This document shows, piece by piece, positions 3,951 to 29,125 of a DNA stretch of 34,890 nt; positions within the stretch are counted from its first letter, which is position 1; each line of letters begins with the position of its first letter. The position numbers were made by a program, and so were the translations under genes. The notes below the pieces were generated by a model that saw only the letters and a program-made list of their open reading frames with translations, did no database searches and was not told where the DNA came from. The stretch comes from Massiliimicrobium timonense (lineage in GTDB: Bacteria > Bacillota_I > Bacilli_A > Erysipelotrichales > Coprobacillaceae), in assembly GCF_002160865.1 (NCBI RefSeq), contig NZ_NFLJ01000035.1:1-34890 (forward strand). Direction: 5' to 3'.

Positions 3951-4016
3951 TTTCATATGTGTTTATTTTTTGACTTTAGTCTTCCTTTTTAATTATTTTC
4001 AAATAGCTTTGTTATT

Positions 4017-4045
4017 AATCAAATGATAAACTCTATCATTTGATT
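4017..4045. repeat. Perfect 12-bp inverted repeat
   Basis: AATCAAATGATA (4017-4028) and TATCATTTGATT (4034-4045) form a perfect 12-bp stem around the loop AACTC. Neither strand has a T-run directly after it, so it is not a standard intrinsic terminator. It lies between ugd and the IS110 remnant and could be a regulator site, an mRNA 5' stabilising hairpin or a piece of mobile DNA. Confidence 0.6.
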
Positions 4046-4085
4046 GCTATATTTATACTCTAATAAATATCAATAGAACTTTTAA

Positions 4086-5018
4086 CTATATTTTTCCTGT
4101 TTTCATTCTCCATATTAAATCTGTAATATCTCTTACTATTGCCACAATAACTACATTATATAGTTTACCTTTTAATATTGTTTTCTTGAATGTTTTCTGC
4201 AATCTTTCAACTAGTTTATTAGCATAAGCTATGGACGTATCATTCTGTCCTTTTTATAGTACTTTTTATTTCATTCCTGTTGTTCCTTATACCAGTGGCT
4301 GTATACATTCTTCCGGCATTTTTCCAATCAGAATATTTCTCATCTTAGCCATTAGCGTATTGTATTGCTTATCTTTACTACAATATTATTTAAATAATAT
4401 AGCTAAATTAGCCACAAATGTTTTGATACTAGAAAGCGTTGAAAATCACTCTATTTTTGATTGTATTTTTTGAAGATGATTATTCAAATATTCATTCAAT
4501 GTTTTTCATATGATATCACCTAGACTAATTATTTCCAATCATTTGATATACGCAATTGTCCAATTGCATTTACCTTCGTAGCTGATTCAATCTCTTAAAG
4601 CAAGTGCACTAATTTACTGTTTGATTTGTTTTCTTGAAAAGTCAATATCTTCTCTCAATCAGATGAAGTTCTTAATTCCATTGGTACATGAACAGCTTTA
4701 TGCAATGGTAAGTTTCGATATTATAGGTATCTATCTTGCTATTATTGACATTTTTGTTTTTAATTAACCTATATATTGTTGATGATATCTATATAAATAC
4801 ATTGAACATCCCAGGCGTCCTGCTTCATATCCTGTTATAACCTCAATCTCATTATCTTCATTTATTCTTTTTTTTGCTCATTAAACAAATTGAAGAATAT
4901 TCTTTATATCATCTCTACATTATGCTAATGCAACAATTTCTCTAATTAATGAATGAATACAACATAAATTATATATGATTTTATGGATACCTATTCCAAT
5001 ATAAATCATATTTATCAT
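4086..5018 (-). pseudogene. Decayed IS110-family transposase
   Basis: Translating the minus strand piecewise recovers IS110-family blocks in the right order, but in several frames with stops. The N-terminus starting at ATG 5018 reads MIYIGIGIHK. About 4870 downward reads EIEVITGYEAGRLGCSMY, the family's GYEAG...GYxLY block. Around 4690 is KAVHVPMELRTSSD (family AVHVPTE), around 4500-4440 is KTLNEYLNNHLQKIQSKIE, and the C-terminal block YANKLVERLQKTFKKTI followed by LKGKLYNVVIVAIVRD ends at the TAG at 4086. Several frameshifts and in-frame stops are present and the total is shorter than the usual roughly 400 codons, so it cannot make an active transposase. Confidence 0.82.
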
Positions 5019-8889: not shown

Positions 8890-9831
8890 TTATCTATCTT
8901 TAATATTTAGTAGAAAAAAAAGAAGACGATATGAAAAAAAAGAAATGAGTGTGACAATTTTATCCTTTAAACTAATATATCTTCTCACTTTAATGTAACT
9001 AAACTGTCTTCTAATTTCTTTTAGTTCTTTTATTTCTATTTTTTTAATATGTTTTAAAGATCTATATAAGTCTATTAGAGTCCTATATTTTTTATAATAA
9101 CAAAGCTGAATTAATAATAAATCATTACTCTTCAATGCTTTTTCTAGTATTACATCTATCGATTTTATTGGTTTAAATAAATTGTTGATACTTTTATCAT
9201 GCATTATACTTTTCTCTCTTTGTACATAATAATAAAAGGCTTCAGAAATATTATAGTATGATTTACAACAATTGAATAAATCATATGTATATATAATATC
9301 TTCAAAATTATATCCCTCTTTAAATATTAAATCTTTGATAGATTGATAATTATACAATTTGTTCCATACAGGTATAAAAGTTTTTGAACTATTAAAATAA
9401 TTATATTTAATAGTTCCAGAATATTTATGTTCTTGAAGGTAAACTTCCTTTTCAAAATTTTCATATTTATATATAAACCCACTTTGAACAAAGTCTACAT
9501 CTTTCTCAAGTATTGTTTTTAACATTTTTTCAATCATATCTTCTTTAATATAGTCATCACTATCTAGAAACATTACATATTTTCCTCTAATATACTTTAA
9601 TCCAAAATTTCTTGCAGAACTTAATCCTCCATTTTCCTTTGTAACAATTTTAAATCTAGAATCAAAATTCTTTTTAATAATTGATATGCTATTATCTAAA
9701 CTACCATCATTTATAAAAATAGCTTCAAAATTACTATAAGTTTGTCTTTTTAGGCTATTAATACAATTTAAAATGTATTTTTCAACATTATAAACTGGCA
9801 CAATTATACTTACAAGGTTTTGATTTTTCAT
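8890..9831 (-). CDS. Family 2 glycosyltransferase
   Basis: 313 residues. The N-terminal GT-A domain has SIIVPVYNVEKYILNCINSL (residues 8-27), INDGS near 40-44, SSARNFGLKYIRGKY near 75-89 and the DXD-containing FLDSDDYI near 93-100. It is typical of bacterial capsule GT2 enzymes acting on the undecaprenyl-linked intermediate. The last about 25 residues (TLISFFSYRLLFFLLNI) form a hydrophobic segment likely to hold the protein at the membrane. GGAG lies eight bases before the ATG. Donor sugar unknown. Confidence 0.85.
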   Translation of the reverse strand: MKNQNLVSIIVPVYNVEKYILNCINSLKRQTYSNFEAIFINDGSLDNSISIIKKNFDSRFKIVTKENGGLSSARNFGLKYIRGKYVMFLDSDDYIKEDMIEKMLKTILEKDVDFVQSGFIYKYENFEKEVYLQEHKYSGTIKYNYFNSSKTFIPVWNKLYNYQSIKDLIFKEGYNFEDIIYTYDLFNCCKSYYNISEAFYYYVQREKSIMHDKSINNLFKPIKSIDVILEKALKSNDLLLIQLCYYKKYRTLIDLYRSLKHIKKIEIKELKEIRRQFSYIKVRRYISLKDKIVTLISFFSYRLLFFLLNIKDR

Positions 9832-9893
9832 AAATTACTCCATATCTTTTTTTGATTTATATTAGATTGATTGCATAAATATTGCTAAAGGAT

Positions 9894-21366: not shown

Positions 21367-21388
21367 AAAACAAGAAAGGGTGATAAGC

Positions 21389-22957
21389 ATGGGATTATAT
21401 TTCAATCCAAGAAATGATAGTTTTCAACAGGCAATTAACAATCCTATATATGTAGATAAATCATTACTGATTAACTATACGAATCAATTGATAGGTACTG
21501 GTGATAATAAATTATGCGTATCAAGACCTAGACGCTTTGGAAAGAGTACAGATGCCAATATGCTTGTTGCCTATTATTCTAAAGGTTGTGATTCTCATCA
21601 TATTTTTGATTCACTCAAAATCAGTCAGACTGATCATTATTTAGAATATCTTAATCAGCATCATGTCATTCATATTAATATGCAGGACTTTTTAAGTAAG
21701 ACTCATGACGTCAATAAAATGATCTTACTTCTCGCCAAATTGATATTTAGAGAAATTAAGAAAGTCTTTTCAGATGTCGATTATATTGATCCATCAGATC
21801 TTATTCAAATCATGGAAGATGTCTATGTTGAAGCAGATGCAAGATTTATTTTTATCCTAGATGAATGGGATTGCATCTTTAGAGAGTACAAGCAGGATAA
21901 AGAAGCACAGAAACAATATTTAGATTTCTTAAGAAACCTATTGAAAGATAAGCCCTATGTAGAACTGGCTTATATGACTGGTATACTGCCTATTAAGAAA
22001 TACGGAACACACAGTGCCTTGAATATGTTTAAGGAAATATCCATGTTGAATGCAACGCCATTAGAATCTTTCATGGGATTTACTGAACAAGAAGTTTATG
22101 ATTTATGCTTAAAATATAATATGGATTATAACGAGATGAAGCAATGGTATGATGGATATCGCATGTCAAATGACATTTCTGTCTACAATCATCGTTCTGT
22201 TGTTTATGCTCTTATGGACAGAAAGTATGAAAACTATTGGACATCTACTGAAACTTATGAAGCCTTGCAGGTTTATATAGATATGAACTTTGATGATTTG
22301 AAGGATAACATCGTTCAACTATTATCAGGAGAGAGTATAGATGTTAATACAAGTAAGTTCCAAAATGATATGACAACATTCAAATCAAAGGATGATGTCT
22401 TAACACTTCTAATACATCTTGGATATCTGGGATATAATAATTCAGATCATACCTGCTATATTCCTAACAAGGAAGTATCAACGAGTTTTATTGATTCTAT
22501 AGAAGATTCAAACTGGGAAGAAACGACAAAGGCATTGTTAAATAGTCGTGAATTATTAGAGGCAACATGGAGAAAAGATGAAGAAGCAGTTGCAAGATAT
22601 ATCGAAGAAGCCCATCTCAATACATCAATATTAACTTACAACAATGAAAATGCATTGTCATATACACTTGCTTTAGCATATATCTATGCCAGAAATCATT
22701 ATACAATGATAAGAGAAATGCCTACTGGCAAAGGTTTTGCGGATATTGTTTTGATTCCATATCGAGATAAACCAGCTATGATTATAGAGCTGAAATGGAA
22801 TCAAGAAGTCAAGACAGCGATAGATCAGATTAAAGAGAAAAAATATCCAAAAGGATTAGAAAAGTATAAAGATAACTTACTGATTGTAGGAATCAGTTAT
22901 GATAAGAAAACAAAGAAACATACATGTCATATTGAAAAGAACACCACAGAAATATAA
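21389..22957 (+). CDS. AAA-ATPase-like protein with C-terminal PD-(D/E)XK nuclease domain
   Basis: 522 residues. The N-terminal AAA-ATPase-like domain (about 3-200) has YVDKSLLI, the P-loop variant SRPRRFGKS (45-53) and a Walker B FIFILDEWDC near 152-161. The C-terminal part (about 440-510) carries the PD-(D/E)XK signature in GFADIVLIPYRDKPAMIIEL, with Asp452, Glu467 and Lys469. This two-domain family is abundant, often in many copies, in gut anaerobes; its function is not established, though a role in mobile DNA or defence is often suspected. The ATG at 21389 is chosen over GTG 21380 because AAAGGG lies eight bases upstream. It is a single-gene unit between two terminators, and all catalytic residues look intact. 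Confidence 0.85.
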   Translation: MGLYFNPRNDSFQQAINNPIYVDKSLLINYTNQLIGTGDNKLCVSRPRRFGKSTDANMLVAYYSKGCDSHHIFDSLKISQTDHYLEYLNQHHVIHINMQDFLSKTHDVNKMILLLAKLIFREIKKVFSDVDYIDPSDLIQIMEDVYVEADARFIFILDEWDCIFREYKQDKEAQKQYLDFLRNLLKDKPYVELAYMTGILPIKKYGTHSALNMFKEISMLNATPLESFMGFTEQEVYDLCLKYNMDYNEMKQWYDGYRMSNDISVYNHRSVVYALMDRKYENYWTSTETYEALQVYIDMNFDDLKDNIVQLLSGESIDVNTSKFQNDMTTFKSKDDVLTLLIHLGYLGYNNSDHTCYIPNKEVSTSFIDSIEDSNWEETTKALLNSRELLEATWRKDEEAVARYIEEAHLNTSILTYNNENALSYTLALAYIYARNHYTMIREMPTGKGFADIVLIPYRDKPAMIIELKWNQEVKTAIDQIKEKKYPKGLEKYKDNLLIVGISYDKKTKKHTCHIEKNTTEI

Positions 22958-22975
22958 CTCTGGTGTTCTTTTTAT
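22935..22975. terminator. Terminator overlapping the end of the AAA/nuclease gene
   Basis: AAAAGAACACCA (22935-22946) pairs with TGGTGTTCTTTT (22961-22972) in a 12-bp stem that includes the last codons of the gene; a T-rich tail follows on +. On the minus strand the stem also ends in a T-run, so it may close the convergent zinc-ribbon ORF too. Confidence 0.8.
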
Positions 22976-23268
22976 CTTTTATGATACAATTTTTTCAATA
23001 AATATTTATTTCTATTCCTTAAAAGGCCATCATCATCAAAATCAAACAAATCATCAAGAGTACGATATTCAATACGATTTAACTCTTTTAAATAAGAAAG
23101 ACCTACCTGTAGATTCATAATTGTATTTTGACTAAAACGAGATAAATAATGTGTACATCCAAAAAACAAACGCTTTGTTTTTCTATAATAAACTAGTTCT
23201 ATTGGTTCATTACAACAAAGACATGATAACTTCTTATATGGTAAAGAAGATTCCATCAGTTGACTCAC
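22972..23268 (-). CDS. Small zinc-ribbon protein, possibly the 3' part of a frameshifted gene
   Basis: 98 codons from GTG 23268, or 94 from ATG 23256. The sequence has LSCLCCNEPIELVYYRKTKR followed by LFFGCTHY: three cysteines, with a final Cys/His, arranged like a topoisomerase-type zinc ribbon (CxxC...GCxxY). The C-terminal half is charged and unremarkable. Neither start has a good ribosome site. Upstream, in another frame, the stretch ADRTIGEAIKILCNAKQM (about 23335-23285) looks coding and would run into this ORF after a one-base shift, so the real gene may be longer and broken, or the upstream text may be chance. Function unknown; nucleic-acid binding would be a guess from the ribbon. Confidence 0.45.
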   Translation of the reverse strand: MSQLMESSLPYKKLSCLCCNEPIELVYYRKTKRLFFGCTHYLSRFSQNTIMNLQVGLSYLKELNRIEYRTLDDLFDFDDDGLLRNRNKYLLKKLYHKR

Positions 23269-23338: not shown

Positions 23339-24613
23339 CTAAAAGAAATATTTTCTAAATTGTCGATAAACTTGTCGACAGGCATTTTGATCACTCGGTG
23401 TTGAAGCAAGGGTTGATTGATATCTGGAATTATCAAAGAACATGACCAGATAATGCTTACTCTTATCTCCTTTCATAAAAATACCATATTTTTTTAATTT
23501 ATTAAAATCATAACTACTAATAAGAGTTCTCAATATCTTTTCTAAATACATATCTCTTGTTCCATCTTTTGGATTTTGATTTAAAATATCTTTTAACAAA
23601 CACAAATCCTCTTTTTCAACATGATTCTTTTTCACATCATCTTCTAACATATCTAACAAAATATCTTTTTGTTCAGCTTGATAATATTCTGGAATATCTC
23701 CTTTATCTAAAAGCGTATAATTATCTTGAAAAGATAGTTCTTCTTCTAATATTTCATTTTGCATCTGTAGCACATTTAATTCACTCTCTAGTCCACTAAT
23801 CAACGCACAATATTTCTCTTTTTCTTCTTCCAATTTATCAATTTCTTCCCCTAATTGATCAATCGTCTGTTTTTCATAATCTTGTGCAAACTGTCTTAAA
23901 TTATCTAAGTAGTTTTTCTCTAAATAGCGAAAACTATATGCATTTCCATATTGTCTTTGTTTTAAATATAAAGTCAATTGATGTAAAATACGCTGCTGTA
24001 ATTGATCCTGTGATTCCTTTTTAGCAAACCTATATGTTTTATAATCTCCATTTAAATAATAAATAATCACTCGACTATTAGTCAAAATCTTTTGACAATG
24101 CTTTGCCATCCAATGGCCAACTTCTTGATTGTCTTCATAAAAAACATAAGCAATTCCCCTTAATTGTTGAGCCAGATAAAATGGATCAACAATCTTTTCA
24201 TAACGAATATAAAGAATCGGTAGTTGAATTCCTCCATCCAACCATTGTATGACCTGTTGTTTATTTTCATGACAAATTTTTATAGGTTGATTACTTAAAG
24301 AAATTTTCTTATCCTTAATCAAATGTTTTGACAATAATTCATCAATATACCGATATCCTTTTTGATAACCATCATTATGAATACATAGACCTCCCTCTTT
24401 TTCATTATAAATGTATTCCATACGATGATATAAATGGACAACAACACTTCCATCATGAGGATATTGATAAATATCATAACAATGATTTTCTATTCTTTTT
24501 TGATTATAATCTATATCTTGATACTCTATACCATAGACTTGAAACAAAGACTCTATAAATTGAGAAATTGTCCATTTCTCTTTCAATTCCAGATAAGTTG
24601 AAAATGATTTCAT
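23339..24613 (-). CDS. Coiled-coil protein of unknown function, second of a pair
   Basis: 424 residues, not recognised. An N-terminal beta-rich region of about 130 residues leads to LPILYIRYEKIVDPFYLAQQ followed by LRGIAYVFYED (about 132-162), a block that also occurs in the upstream neighbour. Charged helices follow, with a coiled coil at about 248-295 (EEIDKLEEEKEKY, SELNVLQMQNEILEEEL). A compact C-terminal domain (about 340-424) ends HYLVMFFDNSRYQSTLASTP then SDQNACRQVYRQF. There are no membrane segments or signal peptide, so it is cytoplasmic. Its start overlaps the stop of the upstream gene by four bases (ATGA), so the two proteins are made together and may form a complex. Function cannot be assigned from sequence. 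Confidence 0.7.
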   Translation of the reverse strand: MKSFSTYLELKEKWTISQFIESLFQVYGIEYQDIDYNQKRIENHCYDIYQYPHDGSVVVHLYHRMEYIYNEKEGGLCIHNDGYQKGYRYIDELLSKHLIKDKKISLSNQPIKICHENKQQVIQWLDGGIQLPILYIRYEKIVDPFYLAQQLRGIAYVFYEDNQEVGHWMAKHCQKILTNSRVIIYYLNGDYKTYRFAKKESQDQLQQRILHQLTLYLKQRQYGNAYSFRYLEKNYLDNLRQFAQDYEKQTIDQLGEEIDKLEEEKEKYCALISGLESELNVLQMQNEILEEELSFQDNYTLLDKGDIPEYYQAEQKDILLDMLEDDVKKNHVEKEDLCLLKDILNQNPKDGTRDMYLEKILRTLISSYDFNKLKKYGIFMKGDKSKHYLVMFFDNSRYQSTLASTPSDQNACRQVYRQFRKYFF

Positions 24614-25689
24614 AGTTTTCCTCCATTCTTTTCAAGAATCGCATGAAGAATATCTAAGCGACGATAAATTTCATGTGTTGCTTCTAATTCATTAGCTTTA
24701 TGTTGAATATACTGCAAAAGTTTTTGACGATAAGTAATGACCTTTTCCATATCATCAATAGCTAACAATGTCGTTCCATGATGATTATGAATTTGTGATA
24801 GTTGATCATTCTTTTGTTTTTGTTCTTCAATATCTTCCAACAGCATATGATAAAATTCTTTCAATTCATTGATTTCTTGTCGACGACGCATAATTTCTTC
24901 CTGAAATTCCTGTTGATATTCTTGACTATTCTTGATTGCTGAATTTTGTTGATGATAAAGCCATTTTTGATAGAGTGAATCATATGAAGGCATGACATTT
25001 TTATATTGTTGAATCGTCATGTTTCTTAAAAGTTCATTGATTTCTCGAATCTGATAATGATAAGCTATTTTCTTATTTAACTGATAAAAGTGACTCTCCT
25101 GACCATCTATAATTTCTATACACCCTTCTTCTTTTTGTTGTATACAATAACAAACATGTGCCAAGCCTAAGACTTCTCTTGCTAAACGATTAGCATCAAT
25201 CCATCTTGTTCGCATATAAATCAGGGGCTTTTTTGTTTTCACTTCTTTTAATTGATCAACATTAATTATACGATGTGCTTGATTATTAAAAGAATAAACA
25301 TCATCTTCAATATAAGGTGATGTCATTATTGTTTTAAATAATGCAGGTATAGATACAGCAGAAATATAACGGGATTCATTAGAAGTTTCTTTAGAAAAAC
25401 GTAAATGTATTGTTTCATCAATTAAATCATAAATAATTTCCACTATAAAGTGTGTATTTTTATAATTATCTTTTGTTGAAAAATAAAGCGTAAGATATCG
25501 CTGTTCAAAGATTTGTATATTTAATATTTTATGGTCAATCTCATATTGAAAAGGAATACGCCCATCATAATTTAAACCATTCATTTTATTTTTAGAATGT
25601 TCCAACCACTCCAGCAGCATATCAATAAGTCTATCTTGGGTTAAGTGTTTTGTTTGAAACTGACTATAATAACAAAGCATTTTTCTCAC
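24610..25689 (-). CDS. Coiled-coil protein of unknown function, first of a pair
   Basis: 359 residues, not recognised. The layout parallels the downstream gene: an N-terminal region of about 150 residues, then KPLIYMRTRWIDANRLAREV followed by LGLAHVCYCIQ (about 154-184), which lines up with the block YIRYEKIVDPFYLAQQ...GIAYVFY in its neighbour, and a long C-terminal helical region (about 255-350) rich in Glu, Gln and Lys with heptad character. It lacks the neighbour's C-terminal domain. No signal peptide or membrane helix. AAGGATGTGAG precedes the ATG and a promoter lies just upstream. The shared block suggests an ancient duplication or a common domain in a two-protein complex. Confidence 0.7.
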   Translation of the reverse strand: MRKMLCYYSQFQTKHLTQDRLIDMLLEWLEHSKNKMNGLNYDGRIPFQYEIDHKILNIQIFEQRYLTLYFSTKDNYKNTHFIVEIIYDLIDETIHLRFSKETSNESRYISAVSIPALFKTIMTSPYIEDDVYSFNNQAHRIINVDQLKEVKTKKPLIYMRTRWIDANRLAREVLGLAHVCYCIQQKEEGCIEIIDGQESHFYQLNKKIAYHYQIREINELLRNMTIQQYKNVMPSYDSLYQKWLYHQQNSAIKNSQEYQQEFQEEIMRRRQEINELKEFYHMLLEDIEEQKQKNDQLSQIHNHHGTTLLAIDDMEKVITYRQKLLQYIQHKANELEATHEIYRRLDILHAILEKNGGKL

Positions 25690-25696
25690 ATCCTTT

Positions 25697-25724
25697 TATA
25701 TAAGTATACCATGCTTTTTGCCAA
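25697..25724 (-). promoter_or_regulatory. Promoter of the coiled-coil gene pair
   Basis: Minus strand: -35 TTGGCA (25719-25724), 16-bp spacer, -10 TATATA (25697-25702), eight bases upstream of the ATG of the first gene, so transcription would start almost at the ribosome site and leave a very short leader. Confidence 0.5.
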
Positions 25725-25861: not shown

Positions 25862-25901
25862 ATATAAAGAAAGCACTTTAATCTTAATGACTAAAGTGCT
25901 T
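25862..25901 (-). terminator. Terminator of the 6-phospho-beta-glucosidase gene
   Basis: AAGCACTTTA (25871-25880) and TAAAGTGCTT (25892-25901) form a 10-bp stem eight bases after the GH4 stop codon; on the minus strand it is followed by TTCTTTATATTTT. It insulates the coiled-coil pair from the glycosidase transcript. Confidence 0.8.
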
Positions 25902-27867: not shown

Positions 27868-29125
27868 CCATTATGTAAAGCTTTACATAAAGGTAAAACT
27901 TATATCATTAGAAAATTTGCTAAAAACAATTATAAAAATCTAGTTGAAATTAATTTTAAAAGAGATAACGAATTTCAAGAACTTTTCAAACAAACAAAAA
28001 CCTCTCATGATTTATTACAATATCTTGAATTAACATATATAAATATTCAGTTTGATCAGAATACTTTACTCTTTTTAGATGAAATTCAAGCATGCAGTGA
28101 TGCTTTTACAGCTTTAAAATTTCTTTCTGAAAATTTTCCATGTGATATTATCTGTTCTGGAAGTATGCTAGGTATTGCTTGTGGCATCAAGTTCTTCATT
28201 TCCAGTTGGCTATGTTGAAACATGGGAGATGTATCCATTAACTTTTCTAGAATTCATTGATGCAATGAGGATCAATCCATCTGTCATTGATATTATTTAT
28301 CAATCGATTGAAAATCATAAGTCTATTCCTACTGGAATTCATGAAAAATTTAATCAGTTCTTTAAAGACTATATGATTATTGGCGGCATGCCAGAAGTTG
28401 TACAGACCTATTTTCAGACAAAATCCTATAGAGAAGCTTTGATGGTTCAAAGACAGATTGTTGATGACTATAGAAATGATATGCTTAAATATGCTCATGG
28501 TTCTGAAAAAATAAAAGCAAGAGAATGTTATGATTCTATACCTCTTCAACTTGCTAAAGAAAATAAGAAGTTTCAATATAAATTAATCAAAAAAGGTGGA
28601 AATGCACGCTATTATGAATCAAGTCTTGATTGGTTGAAAGACAGTGGACTTATTATCAAAACATATAGATAAAAAAATCCAGATATTCCGTTAGAAGTCA
28701 ACAAAGAATTGCATATATTTAAAATTTATATGGCAGATACTGGTCTTCTTATATCCCAATTTGATGAAGCTGTCATTAAAGCACTGATTTTGGGAGATTT
28801 AGGATATTTCAAAGGTGCTCTATATGAAAATATCATTGCCCAAATACTTCATTCAAAAAAGAAAGAAACTTATTATTATGAACCTTCGCAATCACAGGAA
28901 ATCGATTTTATCATTTATTATCAAGGAGAAGTAACTCCTATTGAAGTCAAATCATCACGTAACACAGCATCAACATCATTTAATAATTTTATAAAAAAAT
29001 ACAATCCTTCCTTAGCTTTGAAATTTTCTCAAAAAAATATTGGTGAAAATTCTCAAAATGTACATTATTACCCATTATATACACTTGAATTTATTTTTAA
29101 TAAAGAAAAGCCTATTTTACCATAA
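27868..29125 (+). pseudogene. Broken AAA/DUF4143-type ATPase gene
   Basis: The remains of an ATP-binding protein of the AAA_14/DUF4143 family, usually near 400 residues. The P-loop is damaged (KALHKGKT where a GxRQVGKT motif is expected). Walker B LLFLDEIQAC is intact, as are CSGSMLG and the block SSSFPVGYVETWEMYPLTFL. A one-base frameshift lies at about 28180-28184 (an extra G in TGTGGCA), and an in-frame TAA at 28670-28672 interrupts the conserved stretch between LIIKTYR and NPDIPLEVNKEL. The C-terminus, with YMADTGLL, LYENIIAQ and the DFIIYYQGEVTPIEVKSSRN nuclease-like block, is otherwise well kept, so decay is recent. The 5' end is lost by fusion to the GntR stub. Confidence 0.85.

Follow-up and report, generated by a model that had tools for sequence, protein, structure and literature searches.

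Results

The Gene Pair and Its Signals

We analyzed a stretch of 34,890 nucleotides from Massiliimicrobium timonense (herein referred to as the window), in which two minus-strand genes, A and B, encode related coiled-coil proteins (table 1). An earlier note, made from the DNA alone, had described them as an operon overlapping by ATGA, and both the reading frames and the overlap are present where it placed them, an arrangement consistent with translational coupling. The start of gene A is most likely the ATG at 25680 and not the GTG at 25689, which would add three codons, because all homologues begin MLCYY or MLFYY and because the GTG lies too near the AGGA. The intrinsic terminator that the note attributed to the upstream GH4 gene was also found. 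The promoter that it proposed for the pair at 25697-25724 was not recovered: a consensus scan finds none there, and TTGGCA and TATACT do not make a valid sigma-70 pair because their spacing is just 10 bp; at most, TGGTATACT (25711-25703) could be an extended -10 element. Comparison between members of the genus gives dN/dS values of 0.12-0.30 for A and B both, indicating that the two genes are under purifying selection.

Table 1. Features of the gene pair, with positions in the window
Feature	Position	Strand	Remarks
Gene A (putative sensor-only paralogue)	24610..25680	-	356 aa; start ATG 25680 preferred; predicted N-terminal domain, thioredoxin-like domain, coiled coil and helical segment, without C-terminal domain
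A residues 132-226, predicted thioredoxin-like fold, no CXXC	25003..25287	-	PLIYM...D...LA...GLAHV
A residues 233-300, predicted long helix/coiled coil	24781..24984	-	68 residues
Gene B (full-architecture paralogue)	23339..24613	-	424 aa
B residues 107-218, predicted thioredoxin-like fold, no CXXC	23960..24295	-	PILYI...D...LA..LRGIAYV
B residues 228-295, predicted long helix/coiled coil	23729..23932	-	68 residues
B residues 314-366, conserved helical segment	23516..23674	-	EYYQ.EQKDILL ... ILNQN; in A too
B residues 370-424, predicted HicA-like alpha-beta-beta-beta-alpha domain	23342..23506	-	putative effector; absent from A
B His387 codon	23453..23455	-	invariant in 24/24 aligned relatives
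ATGA overlap, A stop/B start (putative translational coupling)	24610..24613	-	
Possible extended -10 element TGGTATACT upstream of A	25703..25711	-	read from sequence; consensus scan negative
Intrinsic terminator of the upstream GH4 gene	25871..25901	-	stem

Distribution and Neighborhood of the Pair

The window's family was covered by 43 genomes, of which 10 encode A; B is present in exactly these 10 (all five of the window genus, all four of genus g11 and one of six in genus g8). The two always co-occur, with no orphan A or B seen among the 43. The g8 copy is identical to that of Faecalibacillus intestinalis (L108), and the family is therefore placed as Coprobacillaceae. The genes are adjacent in every genome with the pair except one (G023), in which both lie at contig ends, and two g10 genomes encode one longer protein (470-480 aa) in place of the pair. 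In g11 the chromosomal position of the pair is fixed, with a MocR-like regulator on one side and a CstA-like gene on the other; its flanks vary between members of the window genus.

The pair had been noted to lie next to a nuclease-AAA protein and a zinc-ribbon ORF, as in defense or mobile-DNA neighborhoods. The former gene is real (21380-22957, an AAA-ATPase_like plus PD-(D/E)XK_9 protein matching PF09820 and PF08011, with the capsule genes on its other side), but it flanks the pair in only two of the five genus members. The latter is a 98-aa ORF with paired cysteines (CLCC...GCTH; 22972-23268) that matches no family in any library and is not seen at the same place in genome G002. Neither is a conserved partner; defense and mobile-DNA neighborhoods are typical of the wider family described below, but these two genes are no part of them. 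The immediate neighbors of the pair in the window include no clear defense genes, and no Hma genes were found among the window ORFs around the pair or at the loci of genus mates. Elsewhere in the window, two successive ORFs (28175-29125) read like one AAA/DUF4143-type protein split in two frames.

Two copies of B appear damaged. In G002 (L004/L125) an in-frame stop falls 13 codons before the normal end and removes the last helix of the HicA-like domain, A being intact. In G020 (L130 5669-6953) B lacks an intact reading frame and A differs at its end, which reflects either decay of the pair or an assembly error.

A and B Descend from a Duplicated Single Gene

By BLASTP, A and B alone are not significantly similar (E 0.19). 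Comparison of the A-family with the B-family profile aligns A columns 32-355 with B columns 23-347 (P 5.8e-14), which indicates that the two proteins are homologous along almost all of A; the internal block that had been reported as shared (P-I/L-Y-I/M...D...LA..L.G.A.V) is real and is therefore the best-conserved piece of this longer homology. An HMM built from single-gene relatives only gives 126.8 bits for window B and 22.7 bits for window A, against a maximum of 9.5 bits among 1000 shuffled sequences. In a maximum-likelihood tree, inferred by a quick method and with long branches flagged by the program, A is monophyletic (SH-aLRT 99), as is B (99), and A and B group together (81) in a clade nested among single genes of Bacillota. 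The suggestion that the proteins are related subunits thus holds by both profiles and tree.

The simplest history is one duplication in the ancestor of Coprobacillaceae, after which the C-terminal domain was lost from A. Branching within the A subtree parallels that within the B subtree, in keeping with vertical inheritance of the two genes together. Homologues outside Coprobacillaceae are single, and a two-gene machine would therefore be the derived state.

Predicted Architecture

AlphaFold2 models of B (48 sequences, pLDDT 81) and A (31 sequences, pLDDT 80) predict a common order of parts. In B, an N-terminal alpha/beta domain is followed by the domain at 107-218, the helix at 228-295, the segment at 314-366 and, at the C-terminus, an alpha-beta-beta-beta-alpha unit. 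A is modeled with these parts in the same order except for the last unit, and the extra C-terminal domain is confined to B, as had been claimed. The long helices of the two proteins are exactly equal in length.

The models place the shared block within a thioredoxin-like fold in both proteins, with best matches to thioredoxins at Z 10.7 for B 107-218 (98 aligned, rmsd 2.4) and Z 9.6 for A 132-226 (88 aligned, rmsd 2.3). The fold is common to thioredoxin and PDI b-type domains, but here there is no CXXC at the active-site position: the motif is absent from this block in window A, window B and the four relatives compared. Just 4 of 72 family sequences contain a CxxC at any position, which makes a redox role unlikely.

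Residues 1-126 of A match the N-terminal domain of RnlA, the anti-T4 RNase LS toxin (6y2s, Z 7.5), and the RnlA/LsoA N-domain is also among the structure matches in a viral library. This likeness is within the range of chance matches and tied with START/PR-10-like folds, and no RnlA catalytic domain was found; at Z 7.5-8.5, assignments of the N-terminal domain of A as START/PR-10-like (helix-grip) or RnlA-like were rejected as too weak. Searches of Pfam, NCBIfam and PADLOC with A and B returned nothing beyond coiled-coil noise, with no PADLOC match to the two proteins themselves. A PDB sequence search with B, the family profile and the C-terminal profile gave no meaningful relative.

A Predicted HicA-like Domain at the C-Terminus of B

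The C-terminal domain of B, as modeled, resembles HicA toxins in several respects. The alpha-beta-beta-beta-alpha order predicted for it is that of HicA (PF07927), whose fold is dsRBD-like with a catalytic histidine, and of PADLOC HicA-like; it is likewise a small C-terminal domain, with G-F before the first strand and an invariant histidine at the second. In B this is His387, at the start of the second strand and by position equivalent to the histidine of the HicA G-S-H (GSH), within the motif GF.I.EDGKHYKL.Y.GD.RY...L.KTGSD.R.G.N. Relatives match PADLOC HicA-like at the same C-terminal position (E 7e-4 to 8e-3), their C-terminal domain matches PHROG 2053 (down to 7e-11; a PHROG of unknown function), and HicA-like toxins are among the Foldseek matches in the viral library (prob 0.97 and 0.91). 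Sequence similarity is weak, however: PF07927 gives no score above cut-off and no match in the window's own genome, and profile comparison with three HicA sequences is just suggestive (hhalign P 0.003, probability 11%), because of which we call the modeled domain HicA-like without assigning it to HicA itself. B itself is changed at three conserved C-terminal positions (K404S, R410N, N414Q).

The family also differs from HicA in that the domain is fused to a long N-terminal half and has no HicB; no HicB family match was found as a partner, A being a paralogue of B. Class 14 SMC-HicA fusions share the order, with a HicA domain at the C-terminus after a coiled coil, but these are described as SMC proteins, some with NERD domains, whereas the family described here is of about 475 aa and shows one chance P-loop-like match among 72 sequences, with no Walker A or P-loop in A or B. 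A role in defense has been proposed for class 14, and HicA domains have been proposed as anti-phage effectors (Gerdes 2024, PMC10865869).

A Core in Common with HEC-07

HEC designates Hma-embedded candidate systems, some of which (e.g. HEC-04 and HEC-06) are reported to be antiviral (PMC12111858, PMC12988326); no report on HEC-07 was found in the literature searched. The HEC-07 model (PADLOC PDLC04161) matches single-gene relatives of the pair (E 8e-11 to 4e-7) over positions 39-363 of 553 only, its N-terminal two thirds, and the family profile aligns with nine HEC-07-type proteins, fetched from genomes for the comparison, over columns 67-345 (98.5%, P 3.8e-15). These alignments indicate that the N-terminal half of the family is a divergent relative of this candidate defense protein. 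The N-terminal part, the thioredoxin-like block (P...D...LA..L.G.A.V, then G..R.Y.PG) and the coiled coil all align, but HEC-07, at about 553 aa, is longer and its last domain is a different one (LRIYFxWD...VVVGxLPxHL); comparison of the C-terminal domains of HEC-07 and the family gave no significant match. A RelE identity for the HEC-07 C-terminus was unsupported (hhalign P 0.26). Run directly on the family genomes, the model is silent in the window genome; this is a limit of sensitivity, because the single genes of G018 and G290 match.

At two HEC-07 loci (L144, L145) the following gene is presumably a helicase with a RelE-like start, and at L144 the preceding gene presumably a DNA methylase; on our reading, these neighbors are as expected for Hma loci (helicase, methylase, ATPase). 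That the same core carries different toxin-like ends suggests a sensor whose effectors may be exchanged.

Single-Gene Relatives in Mobile Elements

The single-gene form (~475 residues) was found in Bacillota, Pseudomonadota, Planctomycetota, Kiritimatiellota and Synergistota, at 62 loci in a scan of one genome per species, with more copies in viral contigs, on plasmids and in 35 of 5426 E. coli genomes. The distribution of the family is patchy (8 of 395 genomes of the window's class). No copy was detectable in the INPHARED phage collection; IMG/VR and E. coli chromosomes are the sources of the prophage copies. Lambdoid prophages of E. coli have the gene between ybcN/ninB and ren/P, on the strand opposite to its neighbors, and another lambdoid phage (L121) has it at the same position. 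E. coli also has it in tRNA-Phe islands, where restriction genes lie at a greater distance. In Klebsiella it is carried on a 5.9 kb mobilizable ColRNAI plasmid, and in a P2-like element (L046) it follows the late tail genes. Several Firmicute loci have, by eye, what we take to be GmrSD, RloAB-like, SMEK-helicase, PLD-helicase or type I RM-like neighbors; many others stand alone among housekeeping genes, and no conserved neighbor of the single-gene form was found beyond closely related streptococcal islands.

In the P2-like prophage L119, the genes on either side are, as we read their translations, replication gene A and portal Q. The gpA-gpQ position of P2-like phages is a hotspot of antiviral systems, and P2 has old and tin there (Rousset et al., PMC9122126). 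Relatives of the pair thus sit in known defense hotspots of mobile elements. Literature searches by protein accession, covering the copies of E. coli, Klebsiella and the islands, found no paper.

In Citrobacter freundii plasmid p11A1213027_C_KPC (L034) the gene is in two pieces (3971-4810 and 9301-9840) that flank the blaKPC-3/Tn4401 element and were apparently separated by insertion of the transposon. A weak, decayed match with four stops (G274:C3:142284-142667, L031) occurs in another family of the class.

Discussion

We hypothesize, with about even confidence, that A and B arose by duplication and sub-functionalisation of a mobile anti-phage protein, elsewhere encoded by a single gene, with a predicted role in growth arrest. 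In the single-gene form, the N-terminal alpha/beta domain and the redox-inactive thioredoxin-like domain would sense or bind a phage-related signal, the long coiled coil would form a dimer, and the C-terminal HicA-like domain would be a latent effector that cleaves RNA, as an RNase, or blocks it, and so arrests growth. In Coprobacillaceae one copy (A) would have lost the effector domain; A and B, translated in what is probably a coupled fashion, would most likely pair as a heterodimer through their equal-length coiled coils, A as the sensing or restraining subunit and B as the carrier of the effector. Several observations weigh against an anti-phage reading: the pair is near-universal in two genera and hence less patchy than a typical defense gene, the immediate neighbors in the window are not clear defense genes and PADLOC matches neither protein, the HicA sequence signal is weak and conserved C-terminal residues are changed in B, and the B genes of G002 and G020 have, respectively, a premature stop and a broken frame.

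The near-universal occurrence, vertical inheritance in two genera, fixed locus in g11 and purifying selection would also suit a lysogenic-conversion or phage-host regulator that modulates host RNA metabolism or gene expression, domesticated in Coprobacillaceae and with no present role in defense. The defense-hotspot positions of relatives (PMC9122126) and the kinship of the family with HEC-07 speak against such a regulator, and we regard it as unlikely. To a similarly small degree we entertain a toxin-antitoxin-like pair, in which A would be an antitoxin neutralizing the HicA-like toxin of B and the pair would serve mainly in maintenance or stress arrest, not in the sensing of phage. A coupled two-gene operon with the effector domain in B only, and a HicA-like domain at its C-terminus, is what such a module might look like; however, the single-gene relatives, with no conserved neighbor, need no partner, A is homologous to the sensor half of B and not to HicB or another antitoxin, and there is no sign of addiction-module mobility in the genus. 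Weak library matches to SMC, YabA and GpsB might point to a housekeeping coiled-coil complex associated with chromosome or cell division, but we reject this similarity as coiled-coil bias, and such a complex is highly improbable, given that the matches lie in the coiled coil only and far below curated cut-offs, that the family has no consistent ATPase motif and that its distribution in the class is patchy.

Returning to the duplicated anti-phage protein, its broadest form, which we hold tentatively and at somewhat less than even confidence, is that a widespread single-gene anti-phage family, with interchangeable toxin-like effector ends on one sensing core, was split by duplication and effector loss into a sensor/effector heteromer in Coprobacillaceae. 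This would give a testable identity to an unannotated family of E. coli prophages, the P2-like hotspot, Klebsiella plasmids, streptococci and gut Firmicutes, and would tie it to the uncharacterised HEC-07 candidates by a common core. The pair would then be a clean case of a one-protein, defense-like toxin becoming a two-protein system via duplication and effector loss.
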